Assembly: GCA_013041745.1 (NCBI GenBank)
Contig: JABDRN010000074.1
Coordinates: 1 to 51,813 of the forward strand
Direction: 5' to 3'
DNA length: 51,813 nt
Origin: Gammaproteobacteria bacterium
GTDB lineage: Bacteria; Pseudomonadota; Gammaproteobacteria; SZUA-229
Shown here: positions 27,335 through 36,698 of the stretch, piece by piece
Layout: each line of letters opens with the position of its first letter
Position numbering within the stretch: position 1 is the first letter of the stretch
Notes under the pieces: generated by a model
Seen by the model: the letters and a program-made list of their open reading frames with translations, nothing else
Told to the model about the DNA's origin: nothing
Database searches by the model: none
Position numbers and translations under genes: made by a program

Positions 27335-28765
27335 ATGGCTAATTCAATCTACTGGCACGACTATGAGACATTCGGTATCGATTCTCGTTTCGATCGCCCT
27401 TCTCAGTTTGCCGGGATCCGCACGGATGAGGATCTGAATATCATCAGTGATCCGCTCACCCTATACTGTAAACCCGCCGATGACTGCCTGCCAGATCCCG
27501 GTGCCTGCATGGTCACCGGGATCACTCCACAGAAAGCCCTCGCAGACGGCGTTCCCGAGGCTGAGTTCATCGCTGCTATCCACCATGAGTTCTCCACCCC
27601 TGGCACCTGTATCGCTGGTTATAATAATATCCGCTTCGATGATGAGTTCACCCGTAATACGCTATACCGAAATTTCTATAATGCCTATGCACATGAGTGG
27701 CAACATGGTAATTCACGCTGGGATATCATCGATACAGTAAGGTTGACCCGTGCGCTAAGACCCGAAGGTATCAACTGGCCCGAGCAGGACGGCCGCCCTA
27801 GCATACGCCTTGAGTTGCTCACAGAAGCCAATGACATCACACACGAAGCAGCTCATGATGCCATGTCAGATGTCTATGCCACGATCGCCGTCGCCAAACT
27901 GATCAAAGAGAAACAGCCACGCCTGTATGACTACATATACAAGCTGCGCAAGAAAACTGAAGTCAGTAAGCTCATCAACCTGCGCACACATGAAGCCATC
28001 CTGCATGTATCATCCCGTTATTCAGCACAGCGCGGGGCCATCGCCATGGTGATGCCGATTTGCCAGCATCCGATCAATAAAAACGGATTTATCGTCTACG
28101 ACCTCGAGGTTCATCCAGAAGAGTTTTTTGCGGCCGATGTCGATGAGATGGCTGCCAGGTTATATACCCCTGCAGCTGAACTGCCGGAAGGAATCAAGCG
28201 TATTCCGCTCAAACAGATCCATATTAATAAGTGTCCTGTTATCGTACCAGTCAAAACCATGGACAGTGCTGCGGCGCACAGGCTCAATATAGATGTCGAG
28301 CGTTGCCAGCAACACCGTGAGCTCATACTGCAGAACATAGAAGGATTTGCCAGCAGGACTAGCGCAATATTCCAGAACAGTGAATTTCCGGAAGTCAGTG
28401 ACCCTGATGGCCAGCTTTATTCTGGCGGATTCTTCAGTCGCGATGATAGCCAGCGTATCGATTCCATCAGGAGCACCAGCGCGGGCAAACTTGCCGAACT
28501 GCACTTTAACTTCGATGACCAGCGCCTCGCCGAGATGCTGTTTCGCTACCGAGCCAGAAACTATCCGAATACGCTCAGCGAAAAGGAACTCAAGCAATGG
28601 AATGACTATCGTCACGAAAAATTCACTAATCCAGCGACGTCACACCGCACCATGAACCAGTTTCTGGCAGAAATCGAAGCAATCCAGCAGGCCCCTGACA
28701 CTATCGGTAGCCAGCTCGTTCTACTGGAAGACCTGCTCGAATATGCTGAATCAATAAAAATTTAA
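27335..28765 (+). CDS. sbcB: Exodeoxyribonuclease I
   Basis: This is a 476 aa DEDD-family 3'-5' single-strand DNA exonuclease acting in recombination and mismatch repair. The N-terminal exonuclease domain shows WHDYETFGID with Asp9 and Glu11, then GYNNIRFDDEFTRNTLYRNFYNAY and the AAHDAMSDVYATI motif with catalytic His and Asp. SH3-like and C-terminal helical domains follow (FRYRARNYPNTLSEKE). The start has GGGAAC nearby. The next gene upstream is cbbO-like with a 50-base gap, so co-transcription is possible. Confidence 0.95.
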   Translation: MANSIYWHDYETFGIDSRFDRPSQFAGIRTDEDLNIISDPLTLYCKPADDCLPDPGACMVTGITPQKALADGVPEAEFIAAIHHEFSTPGTCIAGYNNIRFDDEFTRNTLYRNFYNAYAHEWQHGNSRWDIIDTVRLTRALRPEGINWPEQDGRPSIRLELLTEANDITHEAAHDAMSDVYATIAVAKLIKEKQPRLYDYIYKLRKKTEVSKLINLRTHEAILHVSSRYSAQRGAIAMVMPICQHPINKNGFIVYDLEVHPEEFFAADVDEMAARLYTPAAELPEGIKRIPLKQIHINKCPVIVPVKTMDSAAAHRLNIDVERCQQHRELILQNIEGFASRTSAIFQNSEFPEVSDPDGQLYSGGFFSRDDSQRIDSIRSTSAGKLAELHFNFDDQRLAEMLFRYRARNYPNTLSEKELKQWNDYRHEKFTNPATSHRTMNQFLAEIEAIQQAPDTIGSQLVLLEDLLEYAESIKI

Positions 28766-28837: not shown

Positions 28838-28866
28838 TTGCTTATATTAGAAATCTGTAATATAGT
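28838..28866 (+). promoter_or_regulatory. Promoter of first sulfur-globule-type gene
   Basis: A -35 TTGCTT (28838-28843), a 17-base spacer and a -10 TATAGT (28861-28866) predict transcription starting near 28873, right at the foot of the leader hairpin. Confidence 0.6.
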
Positions 28867-28874
28867 TACGCCAC

Positions 28875-28901
28875 TGGTCGAAATCGGCCACAAGCGCATG
28901 A
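28875..28901 (+). promoter_or_regulatory. Leader hairpin plus CAAGCGCATGA box
   Basis: TGGTCG-AAAT-CGGCCA (28875-28890) folds into a 6-bp stem with one U-G pair. The box CAAGCGCATGA (28891-28901) follows at once. The same hairpin-box arrangement precedes the second and third globule-type genes with different stem sequences. Confidence 0.55.
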
Positions 28902-28942
28902 GCTTAATTTTAATTGCTGTTAAACAAACTTGAGGTTTACAA

Positions 28943-29371
28943 ATGAAAACATTACAAACTATTGCTGCTGCAACTATCTTAGCAACTTCTACTGCTGTTT
29001 CTGCTGATTGGGATATGCCTTTCTTCGATGACAACAACGGTTACAACTCTAACTCAAACAACTCTAACTGGAACAACAACCATTACGGTAACGGTAACGG
29101 TTACAGTGACGGCGAATTCGACGGTGACGGCGAATTTGATAGCTCTTTCTCTTTCGGTATGAAAGCTAAAGGTAAAGGCCGTGGTCGTGGTGAAGGACGT
29201 GGTAACGGTAACTACGATGGTTACTACAACGGTTACAACAACTGGGACAACCGTAATGGTTACTACAACGGTTACGCTCCTTACGGTTATGCTCCAGCTC
29301 CTTATGGTTATGCACCACAAGCTGCTCCAGCTGCACCTGCTCAAGAAGCACCTGCTACTGCCGCTAAATAA
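28943..29371 (+). CDS. Sulfur globule envelope-type protein 1
   Basis: This is a 142 aa secreted low-complexity protein. The signal peptide (MKTLQTIAAATILATSTAVSA, cleavage before DW) leads to an Asn/Tyr/Gly-rich segment (NNSNWNNNHYGNGNGYSDG). An acidic-then-hydrophobic patch follows (EFDGDGEFDSSFSFGMKAK), then a basic Gly/Arg stretch (GRGRGEGRGNGNYDG), Tyr/Asn/Trp repeats, and a PYGYAPAPYGYAPQ tail ending in Ala/Pro. This composition and order match the sulfur globule proteins (Sgp) that coat periplasmic sulfur in Allochromatium. Codons are strongly biased to GGT, AAC, CGT and GCT, as in highly expressed genes. GAGG precedes the ATG, and a terminator follows. Confidence 0.8.
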   Translation: MKTLQTIAAATILATSTAVSADWDMPFFDDNNGYNSNSNNSNWNNNHYGNGNGYSDGEFDGDGEFDSSFSFGMKAKGKGRGRGEGRGNGNYDGYYNGYNNWDNRNGYYNGYAPYGYAPAPYGYAPQAAPAAPAQEAPATAAK

Positions 29372-29392
29372 GTTTTAGCCGCACAAGCATAG

Positions 29393-29428
29393 AAGCCCGG
29401 CGCCTGTATTACAGGCGTTGGGCTTTTT
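29393..29428 (+). terminator. Terminator after globule-type gene 1
   Basis: Stem AAGCCC..CGCCTG / CAGGCG..GGGCTT, with a small internal mismatch and loop TATTA, is followed by TTTTT. Confidence 0.9.
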
Positions 29429-29660
29429 AGTTTCTGGTATTGATAATATATATCTAGCCTGACCAAAAGGTTCTATGCAGGAGATAAGGAAATTGGCCTG
29501 TTAAATGGTCAGTAAATTCACAGATCCATGGCTTTCGATTATAGCGGCTCGCTATAAAAAATTATCAAACTCAAAAGTAGAACCGACACCGCAGATAACA
29601 GCTAACAAGCTCTACCACTATACAAAATAAAAACAGTAACTTAGACAATACATCCATAAT
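29429..29660. other. Spacer between globule-type genes 1 and 2
   Basis: This AT-rich stretch contains no open frame of note and only small inverted pairs (for example AGCGGCTCGCT). The promoter of the second gene begins just downstream. Confidence 0.5.
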
Positions 29661-29666
29661 TAGATA

Positions 29667-29743
29667 TTTATAATATTAGAGATCTATTATATAGTTTTAA
29701 CACTGGTCATAGTGACCAAGGGTCGTAAAGACCAAGCGCATGA
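29667..29743 (+). promoter_or_regulatory. Promoter and leader of globule-type gene 2
   Basis: A weak -35 TTTATA and a -10 TATAGT (29690-29695), 17 bases apart, predict a start near 29702. The leader then opens with TGGTCA-TAG-TGACCA (29704-29718), a perfect 6-bp hairpin. A second small hairpin GGTC-GTAAA-GACC follows, and then the box CAAGCGCATGA (29733-29743). Confidence 0.5.
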
Positions 29744-29780
29744 TTCTTTTAATAAGTAAACTTAAATGAGGGTTTATACA

Positions 29781-30215
29781 ATGAAAACTTTATTAACAAT
29801 TGCTGCTGCATCTATCTTAGCTACTTCTACCGCTGTTTCTGCTGATTGGGATATGCCTTTCTTCGATGACAACGACGGATACAACTCTAACTACAACAAC
29901 TCTAACTGGAACAACAACCATTATGGTAACGGTAACGGTTACAGTGACGGCGAATTCGACGGTGACGGCGAAGTTGACGGTTCTTTCTCTTTCAACATGA
30001 AAGCTAAAGCACGTGGCCGTGGTGAAGGTCGTGGTAACGGTAACTACGATGGTTACTACAACGGTTACAACAACTGGGACAACCGTTGGGACAATCGTAA
30101 TGGTTACTACAACGGTTACTACAATGCTCCTTATGGTTATGCTCCAGCTCCTTATGGTTATGCACCACAAGCTGCTCCAGCTGCACCTGCAACTGAAGCA
30201 CCTGTAGCTAAGTAA
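29781..30215 (+). CDS. Sulfur globule envelope-type protein 2
   Basis: This is a 144 aa paralogue of the preceding protein. I start it at the ATG at 29781 (MKTLLTIAAASILATSTAVSA), since an in-frame ATG at 29766 lies within the ribosome site region (ATGAGGG). The mature protein keeps the same order: acidic DWDMPFFDDNDGYN, Asn-rich, GEFDGDGEVDGSFSFNMKAK, GRGEGRGNG, then repeated NGYNNWDNRWDNRNGYY and PYGYAPAPYGYAPQ. Long stretches are nearly identical at DNA level to gene 1, indicating recent duplication or gene conversion. It is inferred to be a periplasmic coat protein of sulfur globules. Confidence 0.8.
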   Translation: MKTLLTIAAASILATSTAVSADWDMPFFDDNDGYNSNYNNSNWNNNHYGNGNGYSDGEFDGDGEVDGSFSFNMKAKARGRGEGRGNGNYDGYYNGYNNWDNRWDNRNGYYNGYYNAPYGYAPAPYGYAPQAAPAAPATEAPVAK

Positions 30216-30234
30216 GCTTAGCTAAATCGCTTTG

Positions 30235-30275
30235 AAGCCTGACCTCTGGCTCCCCCCAGATGTCAGGCTTTTTTA
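30235..30275 (+). terminator. Terminator after globule-type gene 2
   Basis: A 15-base stem starting AAGCCTGAC and closing with GTCAGGCTT, with one mismatch, is followed by TTTTTT. Confidence 0.92.
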
Positions 30276-30317
30276 ATTAATTCAATGTATATCGCTAGCT
30301 AATAGCAGGTAATTAAT

Positions 30318-31160
30318 ATGAGCACTAAAGACACTGAAAAAACTGAGAGCACTCCAGAAACGCCAAAAAGCGCGTCTAACGACAATAAAAAAGTATTTGG
30401 CCCCCTTGGCAAATACGCTGTAGTTGCTGTCATAATGGTAAGTATTATCGTCACCACAGCGATCATGCTGAATAGGCAGCTGGGTACTGTCGAAGAACAG
30501 CTGGCTGCCATGGAAAGCGAAATTGCTGAAATCAATGATGCCAATACAAACAACCATGAAAGCACACTTGCAAGTGACACAGCAATCGAATCAACAGCTA
30601 CCACAGAAGTTGCTCAGGTAGAGGCACCTATAGTTGCCGAAGCAGCTCAAGTAGAGTCACCCGTAGCTGCTGAAGCAGCTGAGCTTACGACAGTTGAAAC
30701 ACCTGCGGTCACTGAAGAAGCAATTGCTACTGAAACAACTGCAGCTACTGATGATTCAGCCAAGCTAGCTGAAGTTGCCGATTCTGATGTGCAGAACACC
30801 GCGGCTGATGCAACCCCAATAGAGGACGTTAAGGTCGCATCTTCAGCAGAAGTTGAGTCACATGCGTTCGATATGGAGAAAATTGACCAGGAGCGTCAGG
30901 CACGCATCGAAGCTTTTAAAGCTGAACAGAAGCAGCACATGACTGAAATGTTTGCTCGCATCAAAACGCTTGAAGAACAACGGCTGGACGAGTATAAAAC
31001 CAGCCAGGACCAACAGATCGAACGTTTACGTGAGCAGATTGCCAGGCAGGAAGAAGTCATTGAAGCACTGATATTACGTAATAAAGAGTGGATGGATATG
31101 CGTGAAGCACGCATGCAAGAAAGCCAGTCTAAGCGCGAAGAAATGCTTGAACGCATCTGA
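30318..31160 (+). CDS. Membrane-anchored coiled-coil protein CC1 (no known family)
   Basis: This is a 280 aa protein I cannot assign. A short Lys/Thr/Glu-rich N-terminus (about 1-31) precedes one transmembrane helix (about 33-51, YAVVAVIMVSIIVTTAIML). Lysines before and acids after the helix predict N-in with the rest periplasmic. A short coil (TVEEQLAAMESEIAEI) is followed by a 110-residue Ala/Glu/Thr/Val linker with the imperfect repeat VAEAAQVE, and then by a charged coiled coil to the C-terminus. It lies between two globule-type genes but after a strong terminator, so it needs readthrough or its own promoter. Architecture is shared with the genes at 32758 and 33994. A scaffolding or tethering role is inference. 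Confidence 0.7.
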   Translation: MSTKDTEKTESTPETPKSASNDNKKVFGPLGKYAVVAVIMVSIIVTTAIMLNRQLGTVEEQLAAMESEIAEINDANTNNHESTLASDTAIESTATTEVAQVEAPIVAEAAQVESPVAAEAAELTTVETPAVTEEAIATETTAATDDSAKLAEVADSDVQNTAADATPIEDVKVASSAEVESHAFDMEKIDQERQARIEAFKAEQKQHMTEMFARIKTLEEQRLDEYKTSQDQQIERLREQIARQEEVIEALILRNKEWMDMREARMQESQSKREEMLERI

Positions 31161-31189
31161 TGACAAAACGTTAACTCTCGTAAAACCAG

Positions 31190-31220
31190 GAAGCCGGTGT
31201 CAAAAACACCGGCTTCTTTT
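31190..31220 (+). terminator. Terminator after CC1
   Basis: A perfect 11-bp stem GAAGCCGGTGT / ACACCGGCTTC with loop CAAAA is followed by TTTT. Confidence 0.92.
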
Positions 31221-31397
31221 GCGTTATATGACACAGCTTATAACGATATAAAAGGATAGATCCTTCTCATCCAGTACCCACAAAGCTATACACTTTTATC
31301 ATATTTCACTTTCAATATAAACGGTAATTAACTGTTTTATATGGACTAATTGAATCTTGCGATAATTTGAAACCACTTTAAGGATATATTTTAAATA

Positions 31398-31492
31398 TTG
31401 ACTTATATTAATATTTTCTAATATAATAATACTCAACGGTTCTAATCTTTATTGAGCCGGAATAAATGATTCTAACGAATCCAAGCGCATGA
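31398..31492 (+). promoter_or_regulatory. Promoter and leader of globule-type gene 3
   Basis: TTGACT (31398-31403), an 18-base spacer and TATAAT (31422-31427) form a near-consensus promoter. The leader starts near 31434 and contains hairpin CGGTTC / GAGCCG (31437-31459), hairpin GATTC-TAAC-GAATC (31468-31481) and the box CAAGCGCATGA (31482-31492). Together with the AT-rich 31221-31397 this fills the gap after CC1. Confidence 0.6.
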
Positions 31493-31528
31493 TTATTTAA
31501 CAAGTAAACTTAAATGAGGGTTTATAAA

Positions 31529-31933
31529 ATGAAAACTTTATTAACAATTGCTGCCGCAACTATCTTAGCTACTTCAACTGCTGTTTCTGCTGATTGGGGT
31601 AACAACAACTCTAACTGGAACAACAACTCTAACTGGAACAACAACCATTATGGTAATGGTAACGGTTACAGCGACGGTGAATTCGACGGAGACGGCGAAG
31701 TTGATGGTTCTTTCTCTTTCAACATGAAAGCTAAAGGTCGTGGCCGTGGTGAAGGTCGTGGTAACGGTAACTACGATGGTTACTACAATGGCTACAACAA
31801 CTGGGACAACCGTTGGGACAACCGTAACGGCTACTACAATGCTCCTTATGGTTATGCTCCAGCTCCATACGGTTATGCTCCACAGCCTGCTCCAGCAGCA
31901 GCACCTGCAGCACCGGCTACAGAAGCTAAATAA
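31529..31933 (+). CDS. Sulfur globule envelope-type protein 3
   Basis: This is a 134 aa secreted protein and the shortest of the three close paralogues. Its signal peptide is almost identical to that of gene 2 (one residue differs), and the mature part starts DWGNNNSNWNNNSNWNNN. It lacks the DMPFFDDN segment present in copies 1 and 2. Conserved blocks YSDGEFDGDGEVDGSFSFNM, KGRGRGEGRGNG, NNWDNRWDNRNGYY and PYGYAPAPYGYAPQ follow, ending AAPATEAK. The start at ATG 31529 follows GAGGG. Codon bias is again extreme (GGT, AAC, CGT). Inferred as a sulfur globule coat protein. Confidence 0.8.
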   Translation: MKTLLTIAAATILATSTAVSADWGNNNSNWNNNSNWNNNHYGNGNGYSDGEFDGDGEVDGSFSFNMKAKGRGRGEGRGNGNYDGYYNGYNNWDNRWDNRNGYYNAPYGYAPAPYGYAPQPAPAAAPAAPATEAK

Positions 31934-31955
31934 GTTTTATTACAAAACTTGAAAG

Positions 31956-31985
31956 AAGCCGTGTCTTATGACACGGCTTTTTTTT
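31956..31985 (+). terminator. Terminator after globule-type gene 3
   Basis: A perfect 10-bp stem AAGCCGTGTC / GACACGGCTT with loop TTAT is followed by eight T residues. Confidence 0.95.
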
Positions 31986-32169
31986 GCCAGAAATTTTTCA
32001 TAATCATGTAACGCTGCACTCAACTTATTGTTGCAGGTAATAGTCCTCTAATCCGTCATATCTTGTATTAAGTATGGAATATAGTAGTGTTGCCTTATAT
32101 TTTGAGGTGTTAGAATCAGAATCCAAAAGACGCATGAAACACTCTGATAACTGAATTCAGGAGTTAATA

Positions 32170-32604
32170 ATGAAGATTTTCAAGCTACTCACTGCAGCTA
32201 CCATGCTGGCCACATCTACCAGCGCAATGGCATGGCCTGGTCCATTTGACAATGATGACCGTTATGATAACCGCTGGCAGAATAACAACTGGAACAGCAA
32301 TCGCTGGGACAACCGTTGGGACAACAACGCTTTTAGCGACTTGATGAGTGACGTGATGGGTGACATGTCTGGTGATATGGATGTCGAGATCCGTTTTAAA
32401 GTCAGGGGAAAAGGTAAAGGCAAGGGTAAGGGTGATGCTAGAGGTTACGGTTACAATGATAATTACTGGAGGAACACTAATAGGTATTACGGTAATAACC
32501 GTTATCGCAACTACTATGCGCCTTATGGTTATCAACGGCCCTATTACCAGCCGCCTCGCTATGGATATGCGCCATATGGTCGAACACCTGCGCCAGTACG
32601 ATAA
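32170..32604 (+). CDS. Sulfur globule envelope-type protein 4 (divergent)
   Basis: This is a 144 aa secreted protein of the same class but clearly diverged. The signal peptide MKIFKLLTAATMLATSTSAMA is cut before WPGPF. A Trp/Asn/Arg region (NNNWNSNRWDNRWDNN) leads to an amphipathic patch SDLMSDVMGDMSGDMDVEI, then a basic Lys/Gly run (RGKGKGKGKGDARGYGYND) and a Tyr/Arg/Pro tail. The SDLMSDVMGDM block resembles the GDM/GDF region of Allochromatium Sgp proteins more than copies 1-3 do. AGGAG precedes the ATG. The upstream region has a TATAGT -10-like hexamer at 32080-32085 and an AGACGCATGA variant of the shared box. No clear terminator separates it from CC2. Confidence 0.75.
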   Translation: MKIFKLLTAATMLATSTSAMAWPGPFDNDDRYDNRWQNNNWNSNRWDNRWDNNAFSDLMSDVMGDMSGDMDVEIRFKVRGKGKGKGKGDARGYGYNDNYWRNTNRYYGNNRYRNYYAPYGYQRPYYQPPRYGYAPYGRTPAPVR

Positions 32605-32757
32605 TAAAAACAGCCACCTCGCAAAAATCTGATAATCATTTACAGACCACAGAATACTGGACCTGTAATGGCTTTTCTGCTTGTCATACTTTAGCTAAAA
32701 TTGATGCCATATCAGTCATAAAAAAAAGAAATAACATCTACAACCTGGAATACTAAA

Positions 32758-33768
32758 ATGAGTGATACTGAAAATAAAACTGAAGATAAAACTGCCGATA
32801 CTGCCCCCTACCTTAAAAAAGACAAGCAAGCTGCCAAGCAGACTGAATCTGCAAAAAGTAATTTAGTGATCCCACTGGTATTACTACTGGTATCAGCAAT
32901 CGTTATCATTGCGACTTTTTATGAAGACGAGTATAAAGACCTGGTCGCACAGTCAGGCTCAGTATCTGACTCGCTAGAAAATGCTGAAACTGCAGATACT
33001 ACCATCAGTGCTACAGAAGAAACCGCTTCTGATATAAACAACGTTGAAGAAACAGCTTCGACTGAAGCCGCAACTGAAGAGACGGCCTCTGCAAACCCTG
33101 AAACAATAGCAGATGCCAAAACGGATGAAACAGTGGCAGCTGCCGAAGTTACTGAAAAGCAGGCCACCCCTGCTACACCTGTATCTTCATTACTGCCTGC
33201 CGGTGCAGTCACCAAGGTAGCTGGTACGGAGACCAGTAAATCAACATCTGCCGAGAGTGATCCAGCATCAGTAAGCACCATGGATACAAAGCCTTCACAA
33301 AGCCGCTACACACCTGACCAGCGCCCTGCTTATGCAGACAGGGAATCTTATGAGAAAGCACGTCAGGAAGCCATGGCTCGTGCAGAAGCAGAGAGGAAGA
33401 AACATAATGAAATGATGCAGCAACGCCGCCAGGCATATGAGAAAGAGATGCAGCAGCGCCGCGAACAGTTTGAAGCTATGATGAAAGCTTACAAGGAAAA
33501 AAGAGAAAAGTTAACTGAAACGCAAAAAGCCATATATCAGCAGTTTGAGCAAAATCGTACCGAGGCGAAGCAGAAAATGGAGCAGTTGCATAGAGAGATC
33601 TCTGAAATGCAAAGAGAGATGCACCAGATGATGCTCGATTCAGGGCTTCAGATGAAGCGCGCTCCACAGCCACGGGGACAACGTGCGCCAGCACCACGGC
33701 CAGATTTCAGATACAATAGTACGCTACCTTCACAAGTATCTAATACCGAGAAAATGCAGCGTATATAG
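32758..33768 (+). CDS. Membrane-anchored coiled-coil protein CC2 (no known family)
   Basis: This 336 aa protein has no family I recognise. A Lys/Thr/Asp-rich cytoplasmic N-terminus (1-34) precedes a single transmembrane helix (about 35-53, LVIPLVLLLVSAIVIIATF). An acidic Ala/Thr/Glu/Ser linker of about 150 residues (repeats of EETAS and TAEE type) follows. A long Gln/Arg/Met-rich coiled coil (from about 195, with NEMMQQRRQAYEKEMQQRRE) ends in a Pro/Arg tail (RGQRAPAPRPDFRY). Topology by charge is N-in, coil in the periplasm. It has the same design as CC1 and related coil sequence to CC3. It directly follows globule-type gene 4 (153 bases, no strong terminator), so they may share a transcript. 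Confidence 0.7.
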   Translation: MSDTENKTEDKTADTAPYLKKDKQAAKQTESAKSNLVIPLVLLLVSAIVIIATFYEDEYKDLVAQSGSVSDSLENAETADTTISATEETASDINNVEETASTEAATEETASANPETIADAKTDETVAAAEVTEKQATPATPVSSLLPAGAVTKVAGTETSKSTSAESDPASVSTMDTKPSQSRYTPDQRPAYADRESYEKARQEAMARAEAERKKHNEMMQQRRQAYEKEMQQRREQFEAMMKAYKEKREKLTETQKAIYQQFEQNRTEAKQKMEQLHREISEMQREMHQMMLDSGLQMKRAPQPRGQRAPAPRPDFRYNSTLPSQVSNTEKMQRI

Positions 33769-33803
33769 CAGCTGACTTCAAATACTGCTGCATACAGCAC
33801 CAT

Positions 33804-33829
33804 AAGGCGCATACCCATGCGCCTTTTTT
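33804..33829 (+). terminator. Terminator after CC2
   Basis: The 9-bp stem AAGGCGCAT / ATGCGCCTT with loop ACCC is followed by a T-run. Confidence 0.92.
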
Positions 33830-33880
33830 ATTTTCATATATATCCACGATGAAATTACACAGCTACCCGTATATTCGTAT

Positions 33881-33909
33881 TTGACTATATTATTGTGCTC
33901 TAATATAAT
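33881..33909 (+). promoter_or_regulatory. Strong promoter of CC3
   Basis: TTGACT, a 17-base spacer and a perfect TATAAT (33904-33909) precede the gene. The stretch TCTAATATAAT is identical to that at the promoter of globule-type gene 3, which suggests a common origin or shared control. Confidence 0.7.
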
Positions 33910-33993
33910 GGCTGACATTATTTCACGCATACTATATTCCTGGTTACCTAATAAACCCGGCAGATAAGCATTTTATTTAAAACAGGTAGAACG

Positions 33994-34557
33994 ATGAAAG
34001 CTTTTAAATCTTACATGAAATTAACAACACTAGTACTTTCATTCGTTTATACGAATGTCGTTTTTGCTGATGATCCTGTGCAAGAGGCGAGTAATGATAA
34101 CGCCACTGCAGACACTATCAGCAGTACTGCAGCTAATGACGAGTCTAAGAGTAAAACTGCTCCGGCTATTGAAGCACAGACAAAAACTGTGGATAGCGAA
34201 CAGCAAACTGAACAGCCACAGACGATGACAAATGCACAGAGCTATCGTCAGAAGATGGATGAACGTCGCCGTCAGATGCAGCAAGCACAGCTGGAAGCTT
34301 ATAAGCGCCATCTGGAACGCAGAAAGCAGTATTTTGCTAATAACCCTGTTCCAGCATACGGCAACCAAGGGTTTGATAATAATGTTCCCGCTGACATCCA
34401 GCAAAGACGTGACGAATTCATCAAGCAGATGGAAGAACGTCGTGCAATGAACGTTAAAATGATGCAACAACATCGCAAAGAAGCAGAACAGAGAAGAAAA
34501 GCGATGCGGCTAAAGATGCACCAGACATGTACACCTGAGTCATTACAAAAAGCTTAA
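33994..34557 (+). CDS. Secreted coiled-coil protein CC3 (no known family)
   Basis: This is a 187 aa protein with a cleavable-looking signal peptide (hydrophobic LTTLVLSFVYTNVVFA, cut before DD). A low-complexity Asp/Thr/Ala/Ser linker (about 28-80) precedes a Gln/Arg/Met coiled coil (SYRQKMDERRRQMQQAQLEA). A Pro/Asn/Gly break (NPVPAYGNQGFDNNVPAD) and a second coil (QQRRDEFIKQMEERRAMNVK) complete it. A single cysteine sits near the C-terminus (HQTCTPESLQKA). The second coil resembles RREQFEAMMKAYKEKR of CC2, so the two look related. AGGT precedes the ATG. As the exported, unanchored member of the set it could bridge anchored coils and the globule coat; that is inference. Confidence 0.7.
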   Translation: MKAFKSYMKLTTLVLSFVYTNVVFADDPVQEASNDNATADTISSTAANDESKSKTAPAIEAQTKTVDSEQQTEQPQTMTNAQSYRQKMDERRRQMQQAQLEAYKRHLERRKQYFANNPVPAYGNQGFDNNVPADIQQRRDEFIKQMEERRAMNVKMMQQHRKEAEQRRKAMRLKMHQTCTPESLQKA

Positions 34558-34692: not shown

Positions 34693-34742
34693 TAGCAGCA
34701 ATCATGCGCTGCTAGGGCACGTAGGTTTCGGCTTACGTGCCC
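34693..34742. terminator. Hairpins between CC3 and yggS
   Basis: TAGCAGC / GCTGCTA and then GGGCACGTA / TACGTGCCC (34715-34723 and 34734-34742) lie between the convergent genes. Only short T-runs follow, so terminator strength is uncertain. Confidence 0.55.
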
Positions 34743-34762
34743 GCCTTTACTCTGGCTATAAC

Positions 34763-35479
34763 TTATTGACGCGGACCAAATATCGACGTCCCTACCCGCA
34801 CCATCGTTGCACCTTCTTCAATAGCCAGGCAATAGTCACCACTCATCCCCATCGAGAGCTGGTCAAAATCATCCAGCCCGAACGCCTGCTTGCAGGATTC
34901 CTGTAATTCTCTCAACTGCTTAAAGGCATTTCGTGTTTGCTGCTCATCACCCTGAACCCCTATCGTCATCAGACCTCGCCACCTCAGGCATGGTAGCGGT
35001 TGTTCAAGCACTTCGCGCAAGAATGTTTCCACATCAGCTGGCATTAGACCCGATTTGCTCTGCTCACCACTGACATTAACCTGTATAAGACAGTTAAGCT
35101 GCGAATTCTTTGCTTTGTTGATCATAGCGCCAGACAGTTTTCGAGCAAGCTTGAGGCTATCAACCGAATGTATCCACTGGAAGTATCCCGGCAATTTACC
35201 CGCTTTTTTCGATTGCAGGTGACCGATGAAATGCCACTCAGCTGTACAGCTCGTCAAATACGGGATCTTGGTCATCGCATCCTGTATGGTATTTTCACCG
35301 AAGCTGCTCTGCCCGAGTGCAGCTACTGATTTAACTTCATCAAGCGTTCGTGTTTTAGAAACAACAATAAGCCGTATCTCCTCTTTCTCGCGACCTGCCT
35401 TTTGTGCACAGACCTTTATCTGACGCAAAACAGCTGCCAGATTATTAGCAAGCTGATTATCAGTAGCCGTATTCGACAT
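34763..35479 (-). CDS. YggS/PLPBP-family pyridoxal phosphate homeostasis protein
   Basis: This is a 238 aa PLP-binding TIM-barrel protein that keeps vitamin B6 and amino-acid pools in balance; it has no known catalysis. Key features are RLIVVSKTRTLDEV with the PLP lysine (Lys42), FGENTIQDAMTKI, WHFIGHLQSKKAGKL, LIQVNVSGEQSKSG, LMTIGVQG, LSMGMSGDYCLAIEEGATMVRVGTSIFG. I choose ATG 35479. A longer frame back to 35548 would overlap the alaA coding end and adds residues absent from the family. It starts 4 bases below the alaA stop, so the two are an operon. Confidence 0.93.
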   Translation of the reverse strand: MSNTATDNQLANNLAAVLRQIKVCAQKAGREKEEIRLIVVSKTRTLDEVKSVAALGQSSFGENTIQDAMTKIPYLTSCTAEWHFIGHLQSKKAGKLPGYFQWIHSVDSLKLARKLSGAMINKAKNSQLNCLIQVNVSGEQSKSGLMPADVETFLREVLEQPLPCLRWRGLMTIGVQGDEQQTRNAFKQLRELQESCKQAFGLDDFDQLSMGMSGDYCLAIEEGATMVRVGTSIFGPRQ

Positions 35480-35483
35480 AAAA

Positions 35484-36698
35484 TTACTGTTTATAATGCG
35501 AGAAGAAATTGGCGATCGATTTAAAGGCCCTGGTGAGCTCATCGACATGCGGTAAAAAAACTATCCTGAAATGGTCGGTATCCGGCCAATTAAATGCTGA
35601 ACCATGCACTATCAGGATCTTTTCCTGAATCAGTAGATCGAGCACCATTTTTTCATCGTCTGAGATATTGAACCGGGACTGATCCATCTTTGCAAACAGG
35701 TACATCGCACCTTTAGGTTTAACACAGCTTATACCGGGTATGGCGGTAAGCATGTCATGAGCCAGATTTCGCTGTTCGTATAAGCGGCCACCTGGTGCGA
35801 CCAGCTCATTGATGCTCTGATACCCACCAAGCGCAGTTTGAATGGCATGCTGACCGGGAACATTGGAGCATAGGCGCATCGATGCCAGTAGTTCGATGCC
35901 TTCTATATAATCCGTGGCGTTGGATTTATCACCACTGATAATCATCCAGCCAGCACGGAAGCCGGCTACTCGGTAGGCTTTTGACAGCCCGTTATAAGTG
36001 AGACAGAAAACATCCTCGCAAAGCGATGCTGTAGAGATGTGTTTTGCATCATCGTAGACGATCTTGTCATAGATCTCATCAGAGAATATGATCAGATCGT
36101 GCTCTCTTGCGAGTTCGATTATGCTAAGTAAAACTTCTTCTGGATAAACTGCGCCTGTTGGATTATTCGGGTTGATAATGACGATGCCACGCGTATAGTC
36201 AGTTATCCTGGACTTGATATCATCGATATCAGGATACCATTCTGACTCTTCATCACAGAGGTAGTGCACCGGTTTGCCTCCAGAGAGTGAGACCGCGGCA
36301 GTCCATAGTGGATAATCCGGTGCCGGTATCAGTACTTCATCACCATTATTAATCAGTGCCTGCATCGACATGACGATTAGTTCACTGGCGCCGTTACCGA
36401 GGTACACATCATCAATTTCGACGTTAGCAATGCCTTTCTGCTGGCTATATTGCATGACAGCCTTACGTCCCGAAAAAAGCCCTCTGGAATCACTGTAACC
36501 CTGAGAGACGGGAACATTATGTATCATGTCCTGGACGATTTCTTCCGGGGCATCAAAACCAAACGGAGACGGATTACCTATGTTCAGTTTGAGGATCTTG
36601 TGGCCGTCTTCTTCCAGCCGTCGCGCTTCGCGATGTACCGGACCGCGTATGTCATAACAGACAGCATCCAGTTTATGAGACTTTTTCAGTGTTCGCAT
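35484..36698 (-). CDS. alaA: Glutamate-pyruvate (alanine) aminotransferase AlaA
   Basis: This is a 404 aa class I PLP aminotransferase converting pyruvate and glutamate to alanine and 2-oxoglutarate. It aligns along its length with E. coli AlaA. Matches include VCYDIRGPVHREARRLEEDG at the N-terminus, LNIGNPSPFGFDAPEEI, IPAPDYPLWTAAVSLS, IINPNNPTGAVY and DEIYDKIVYDD. The PLP lysine is Lys240 in YNGLSKAYRVAGFRAGW, and FNWPDTDHFRIV is near the end. It is followed immediately by yggS. Confidence 0.94.
   Translation of the reverse strand: MRTLKKSHKLDAVCYDIRGPVHREARRLEEDGHKILKLNIGNPSPFGFDAPEEIVQDMIHNVPVSQGYSDSRGLFSGRKAVMQYSQQKGIANVEIDDVYLGNGASELIVMSMQALINNGDEVLIPAPDYPLWTAAVSLSGGKPVHYLCDEESEWYPDIDDIKSRITDYTRGIVIINPNNPTGAVYPEEVLLSIIELAREHDLIIFSDEIYDKIVYDDAKHISTASLCEDVFCLTYNGLSKAYRVAGFRAGWMIISGDKSNATDYIEGIELLASMRLCSNVPGQHAIQTALGGYQSINELVAPGGRLYEQRNLAHDMLTAIPGISCVKPKGAMYLFAKMDQSRFNISDDEKMVLDLLIQEKILIVHGSAFNWPDTDHFRIVFLPHVDELTRAFKSIANFFSHYKQ

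Follow-up and report, generated by a model that had tools for sequence, protein, structure and literature searches.

The DNA analysed here (the window) is a stretch of 51,813 nucleotides from a gammaproteobacterium of the SZUA-229 lineage (assembly GCA_013041745.1, contig JABDRN010000074.1, positions 1 to 51,813 of the forward strand). The source assembly (G000) amounts to 2.97 Mb in 138 contigs and is 96% complete. Between sbcB and yggS lies an array of seven genes on the plus strand, in which four genes for exported Gly/Asn/Tyr-rich proteins (S1–S4) are interleaved with three genes for helical proteins (C1–C3). All seven open reading frames listed in an earlier note on this DNA were confirmed in place; the alternation described there holds only loosely, the order being S S C S S C C. 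The names sbcB, yggS, sat, apr and the like were assigned from translations, without a profile search.

27335-28765, sbcB, left flank of the array
28943..29371, plus strand, S1, sulfur globule protein, exported and rich in Gly, Asn and Tyr, 142 amino acids (Pfam SGP PF17228, 43.0 bits, E 8.6e-11; signal sequence by eye)
29781..30215, plus strand, S2, sulfur globule protein, 144 amino acids, or 149 from an alternative ATG at 29766 (Pfam SGP, 36.6 bits; blastp)
30318..31160, plus strand, C1, predicted single-pass inner-membrane protein, 280 amino acids, N in/C out, with a disordered linker and a 104-residue C-terminal helix ending in RI (alignment A1 of 16, topology, AlphaFold2, profile search)
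31529..31933, plus strand, S3, sulfur globule protein, 134 amino acids (Pfam SGP, 48.5 bits)
32170..32604, plus strand, S4, divergent sulfur globule protein, 144 amino acids, with an acidic/Met-rich middle (Pfam SGP, 33.0 bits)
32758..33768, plus strand, C2, predicted single-pass inner-membrane protein, 336 amino acids, of C1-like design with a 105-residue helix at 195-299 (alignment A2 of 15, AlphaFold2, searches)
33994..34557, plus strand, C3, secreted Gln/Arg/Met-rich helical protein, 187 amino acids (alignment A3, architecture table)
34763-35548, yggS, right flank of the array

S1–S4 all score above the curated cut-off of the sulfur globule protein family (PF17228; 33.0–48.5 bits versus 26.7), while the same profile matched none of 14 control genomes. 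Each of the four begins with an export signal consisting of a positive start, a hydrophobic stretch and an Ala-X-Ala type end (4/4, read by eye). S1–S3 are 76–88% alike, with S2 ~84–88% identical to S1 by blastp, and S4 is divergent. G000 contains seven SGP matches, four in the array and three on other contigs, and one of these other sgp genes adjoins sat and lies near aprBA. The family match, the sgp copy beside the sulfur genes and the co-occurrence described below together support the assignment of S1–S4 to the sulfur globule coat family, as the earlier note had proposed.

C1 and C2 share a predicted plan: a cytoplasmic N-terminal tail, one membrane helix, a disordered acidic Ala/Thr/Glu linker and a straight C-terminal helix. 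AlphaFold2 placed the membrane helix of C1 at residues 24-83, followed by disorder at 84-175 and a high-confidence helix at 176-279; for C2 it predicted a helix at 37-72, then disorder, then the helix at 195-299. The charge pattern around the membrane helix follows the positive-inside rule (N in, C out) in both proteins and in 16/16 C1 homologues. The membrane helix starts at residue 33–36, and neither protein has the cleaved signal peptide and free periplasmic form by which the globule protein SgpD is recognized. The linkers carry a net charge of -18 in C1 and -16 in C2, and the C-terminal helices of 104–105 residues would measure ~15.6 nm if straight. Alignment of the 16 C1 homologues revealed a conserved membrane segment and rod joined by a variable linker; the last residue of the rod is Ile throughout, usually within Arg-Ile. 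The hydrophobic periodicity of the C1 and C2 helices, 3.6 residues, is significant and not diagnostic of heptads. Because heptads are thereby not proven, 'long amphipathic helix' is a safer term than 'coiled coil'; the anchor and linker design of C1 and C2 and the secretion of C3 that the earlier note had read from the sequence stand. In sequence, C1 and C2 resemble each other only weakly: their rods align at 85% probability, perhaps through composition. C3 has a cleavable-type signal sequence and no further membrane segment. None of the three matched a curated family, and profile searches of the PDB with the helical proteins returned designed helices or short coil matches only.

C2-like proteins also occur singly. 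One such membrane protein in G000 (L238:4732-5559, minus strand, contig C61) lies away from sgp genes and bears a long Lys/Ala/Pro-rich, histone-H1-like cytoplasmic tail; similar genes were seen in L084, L088 and L089, and histone-H1-like tails are also present on the array C2 of two relatives (G006 and G011). Weak C2 matches on G003:C117 and G024:C226 are surrounded by unrelated genes and were set aside.

Conservation in many relatives argues that the array is more than a chance arrangement. Several genera retain, with variations, the order sbcB, sgp–C1–sgp–sgp–C2–(C3 or SgpD-like), yggS. In four others (g4, g5, g7 and g10) a shorter module of sgp, a membrane helix protein and an sgp–helix fusion lies elsewhere in the genome, its weaker matches resting partly on composition. 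The co-occurrence and synteny comparison suggested by the earlier note was carried out on 96 genomes, comprising relatives and members of the class. sgp genes were present in 44 and C1 in 17, and C1 occurred only in sgp-bearing genomes (17/17; hypergeometric p 2e-7 over all genomes, 1e-3 within the family) rather than mainly in organisms free of globule genes, the outcome that the earlier note had named as refuting. C1 is located close to a scored sgp gene, at a median of 157 bases and a maximum of 1,008. Genomes positive for dsrA and negative for sgp (for example G009, G022, G028 and G041) had no C1, so the presence of C1 tracks that of coat genes and not the capacity for sulfur oxidation in itself. 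In a class-wide sample of 369 genomes used for sgp and C2, sgp genes were found in 55 (~15%) and C2 profile matches in 2, both of the source family. Since C2 was found in that family only, the membrane-anchored proteins are a lineage-specific addition to a widespread coat.

These distributions bear on the possibility that the coil genes encode general envelope spacers, reaching from the inner membrane to peptidoglycan or outer membrane, and are linked to sgp by chance. The design does resemble TolA/TonB-type anchors with rods, and the solo C2-like copies lie away from sgp genes. However, C1 was never found without sgp genes among the 96 genomes, sgp and coil genes are jointly absent from the slot in four relatives with the same flanks, where unrelated genes stand, and coat domain–helix fusions exist. 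We consider a chance linkage of this kind improbable.

The signals around the genes suggest that they are not all expressed alike. The following elements were identified in the array, all on the plus strand.

28862..28905, plus strand, leader RNA element of S1, a hairpin plus GCGCAUGA (covariance model R1, E 3.2e-8; covariation)
29391..29427, plus strand, terminator hairpin behind S1
29707..29747, plus strand, leader RNA element of S2 (R1, E 3.7e-7)
30232..30280, plus strand, terminator hairpin between S2 and C1 (fold of -23.8 kcal/mol plus a T run)
31186..31225, plus strand, terminator hairpin behind C1
31398..31427, plus strand, near-consensus sigma-70 promoter of S3, TTGACT-18-TATAAT (11/12)
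31454..31496, plus strand, leader RNA element of S3 (R1, E 4.7e-6)
31952..31990, plus strand, terminator hairpin behind S3 (fold)
33804..33825, plus strand, terminator hairpin behind C2
33881..33909, plus strand, near-consensus sigma-70 promoter of C3, TTGACT-17-TATAAT (11/12)
34708..34752, plus strand, hairpin behind C3, a possible terminator (fold)

The independent strong promoters and terminators that the earlier note attributed to the genes were recovered in part. Hairpins follow every gene except S4, behind which folding gave none; C2 starts 153 bases 3' of S4 with no terminator between. As for promoters, near-consensus sites are located at 31398 and 33881, but promoter-like sites overall did not exceed those in shuffled sequence (9 versus 13), and the scan was rejected as proof of strong promoters.

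The leader element consists of a 5-pair covarying hairpin followed by an invariant GCGCAUGA, 20–66 bases 5' of the start codon. It is carried by most array sgp genes and by SgpD-like genes, with 43 array leaders in relatives besides the three copies in the window. The octamer GCGCATGA was present in the leaders of 43/123 array genes versus 0/206 neighbours, chiefly at sgp and SgpD-like genes (C1, 1/16; C2, 0/21). In the covariation count, which covered 43/46 leaders and left out three without a clear hairpin, changes on both sides occurred in 5/5 pairs and 93% of cells could pair versus 26–43% in slid controls. These compensatory changes, together with frequent G-U pairs, favour an RNA hairpin and disfavour a DNA operator. 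The stem mostly starts 10–13 bases 3' of the presumed -10 box, which puts it near the 5' end of the messenger RNA (mRNA). R1 recovered the three window copies and two loci outside its training set (L140 and L144), in each case immediately 3' of sbcB; it had no match at sgp genes elsewhere in G000 or in other families. Rfam had no family at cut-off for the element, only sub-threshold and implausible matches. In our reading, the hairpin at the 5' end may stabilize abundant coat mRNAs.

A secreted partner of globule coats has been described in Allochromatium vinosum. Its SgpD, which is possibly coiled-coil, exceeds all other globule proteins in abundance and has a Pro-spaced core and two predicted helices; it co-localizes with globules, and its deletion had no visible effect (PMC10386293). 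The published Pro spacing recovered likely SgpD orthologues in Chromatiaceae, exactly in A. palmeri and near-exactly in two others, and the A. palmeri sgpD adjoins an RND exporter, in agreement with PMC10386293. A search of the G087 and G292 families and of eight Chromatiaceae genomes for the published sgpD terminator did not find it. A profile built from three of the Chromatiaceae orthologues matched array-end proteins in three relatives (G053, G042 and G029) with E values of 1e-9 to 5e-11, versus 7e-4 for the best reversed decoy; these SgpD homologues (proteins of L048, L096 and L029) lie in arrays of related genera. Iterated searches with SgpD or C3 drift into the sgp family via coat–helix fusions, so single-round profiles alone were taken as evidence. 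The array-end protein of G053 is such a fusion, in which SgpD-like helices follow a complete sgp domain, and sgp domain–helix fusions recur both within the source family and elsewhere in the class. Proteins with an sgp domain and a Gln/Glu/Met-rich helical tail were noted in several families at L111:1874-2554, L112:763-1368, L108:5499-5984 and L078:9287-10372; they are possibly an evolutionary link between Sgp and SgpD. In two other regions, L014:1163-7338 and L109:64-5706, an RND exporter and two small secreted proteins rich in Pro precede an sgp gene, an order that is the same in an unrelated family.

C3 holds the array position that SgpD-like genes take in related genera. The SgpD profile matched none of C1, C2 and C3, and direct homology of any of them with SgpD is not supported by profile or hhalign comparison. 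A functional likeness could still make C1–C3 part of the coat or of a globule-shaping scaffold, that is, a membrane-assembled cage or nucleation site of abundant SgpD-like structural helices, not tethers. Its appeal is that SgpD-like and coat–helix fusion proteins hold the terminal array position and that globules contain SgpD as a bulk component rather than as a linker (PMC10386293). C1 and C2, however, keep a conserved membrane helix of the uncleaved type, needless for a free coat protein, and mostly do without the coat-gene leader element (1/16 and 0/21), suggesting lower expression. We judge such a coat or scaffold role unlikely.

From the coat family, the linkage, the predicted protein design, the co-occurrence and the coat–helix fusions, we propose, with slightly more confidence than doubt, that the array is a sulfur globule coat locus of an uncultured gammaproteobacterial lineage, with lineage-specific accessory scaffold proteins, in which C1 and C2 tether globules to the inner membrane. 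S1–S4 would form the Sec-exported coat of globules lying in the periplasm. C1 and C2 would be anchored in the inner membrane, with a flexible acidic linker of 90–120 residues carrying a helical rod of ~15 nm, both predicted, into the periplasm. The rods would most likely pair with similar helices at the surface of the globule, provided by C3 here or by SgpD-like proteins and coat–helix fusions in relatives, rod and coat perhaps binding through Gln/Glu/Met-rich helices. Such tethers could keep a globule at the inner membrane as it grows, near the sulfide-oxidizing enzymes and the return route to the cytoplasm, and might help globules to be shared at division. They would be made in smaller amounts than the coat because S1–S3 each have a leader, C1 comes after the terminator of S2, and C2, located after S4, has no clear promoter. 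That the helical proteins of the array associate with globules is likely; tethering is the best, unproven mechanism for that association, and we hold it at about even.

Several observations weigh against this proposal. Its main weaknesses are that the array is known from sequence, none of its proteins having been seen on a globule, and that dsrA was not found in the G000 assembly. The pairing of rod and coat is a candidate interaction. The hhalign probabilities to SgpD are low (5% for C1, 18% for C3, and a weak 28% for C2). Among genomes of other families that carry sgp genes, none of those sampled had C2 and none of the few examined had C1, so neither protein is required for globules. Solo C2-like genes exist outside arrays, one of them in G000. 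Finally, dsrA is typical of globule users, and none above cut-off was found in G000 despite its completeness and the presence of aprBA, sat and seven sgp matches; two other genomes (G029 and G037) also have no dsrA. An assembly gap or a different sulfur route may account for the missing gene. The same absence would suit an extracellular or surface matrix made of the Gly/Asn/Tyr-rich proteins, with the membrane-bound helices serving its export or display, since matrix proteins, too, can be of low complexity and rich in Gly and Tyr. Against such a matrix stand the SGP matches above the curated cut-off with 0/14 control genomes matched, the sat and aprBA genes by another sgp copy, and dsrA in most sgp-bearing relatives, and we regard it as very improbable.

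We know of no mechanism by which sulfur globules are placed, retained close to the enzymes responsible for filling and emptying them, or shared between daughters. A conserved module of coat and membrane-anchored rod offers named, testable genes for the fastening of sulfur stores to the membrane. It shows that the coats of globules include accessory parts specific to a lineage, and it ties an undescribed leader RNA to coat genes. We consider the module genuine and conserved, a variant of the sulfur globule coat that includes two membrane-anchored helical families, apparently undescribed, and a leader RNA that is likewise undescribed. More tentatively, and with doubt prevailing, C1 and C2 might be the first tethers known to fasten a bacterial sulfur store to a membrane, docking on the coat while the shared leader RNA (GCGCAUGA) sets coat expression above that of the tether.

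TolA/TonB-type periplasmic rods, which are anchored in the inner membrane, combine an N-terminal anchor with a long extended periplasmic part. C1 and C2 resemble them in architecture only, having neither a C-terminal globular domain nor a family match. Like S1–S4, SgpA, SgpB and SgpC of A. vinosum are exported, Gly/Asn/Tyr-rich members of PF17228. In contrast to the A. vinosum sgpA, sgpB, sgpC and sgpD genes, whose locus tags are far apart (PMC10386293), four copies here share one array with membrane-anchored helical proteins. The earlier note knew of no described partner of this kind for globule proteins; for the secreted helical type SgpD is one, while for the membrane-anchored type no counterpart appears to have been described. 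C3 shares with SgpD, a protein with Gln/Glu/Met-rich helices found on globules, secretion and the same general design, but has no Pro-spaced core; C1 and C2 differ from SgpD in being anchored in the membrane and in having a long linker and a single long rod.

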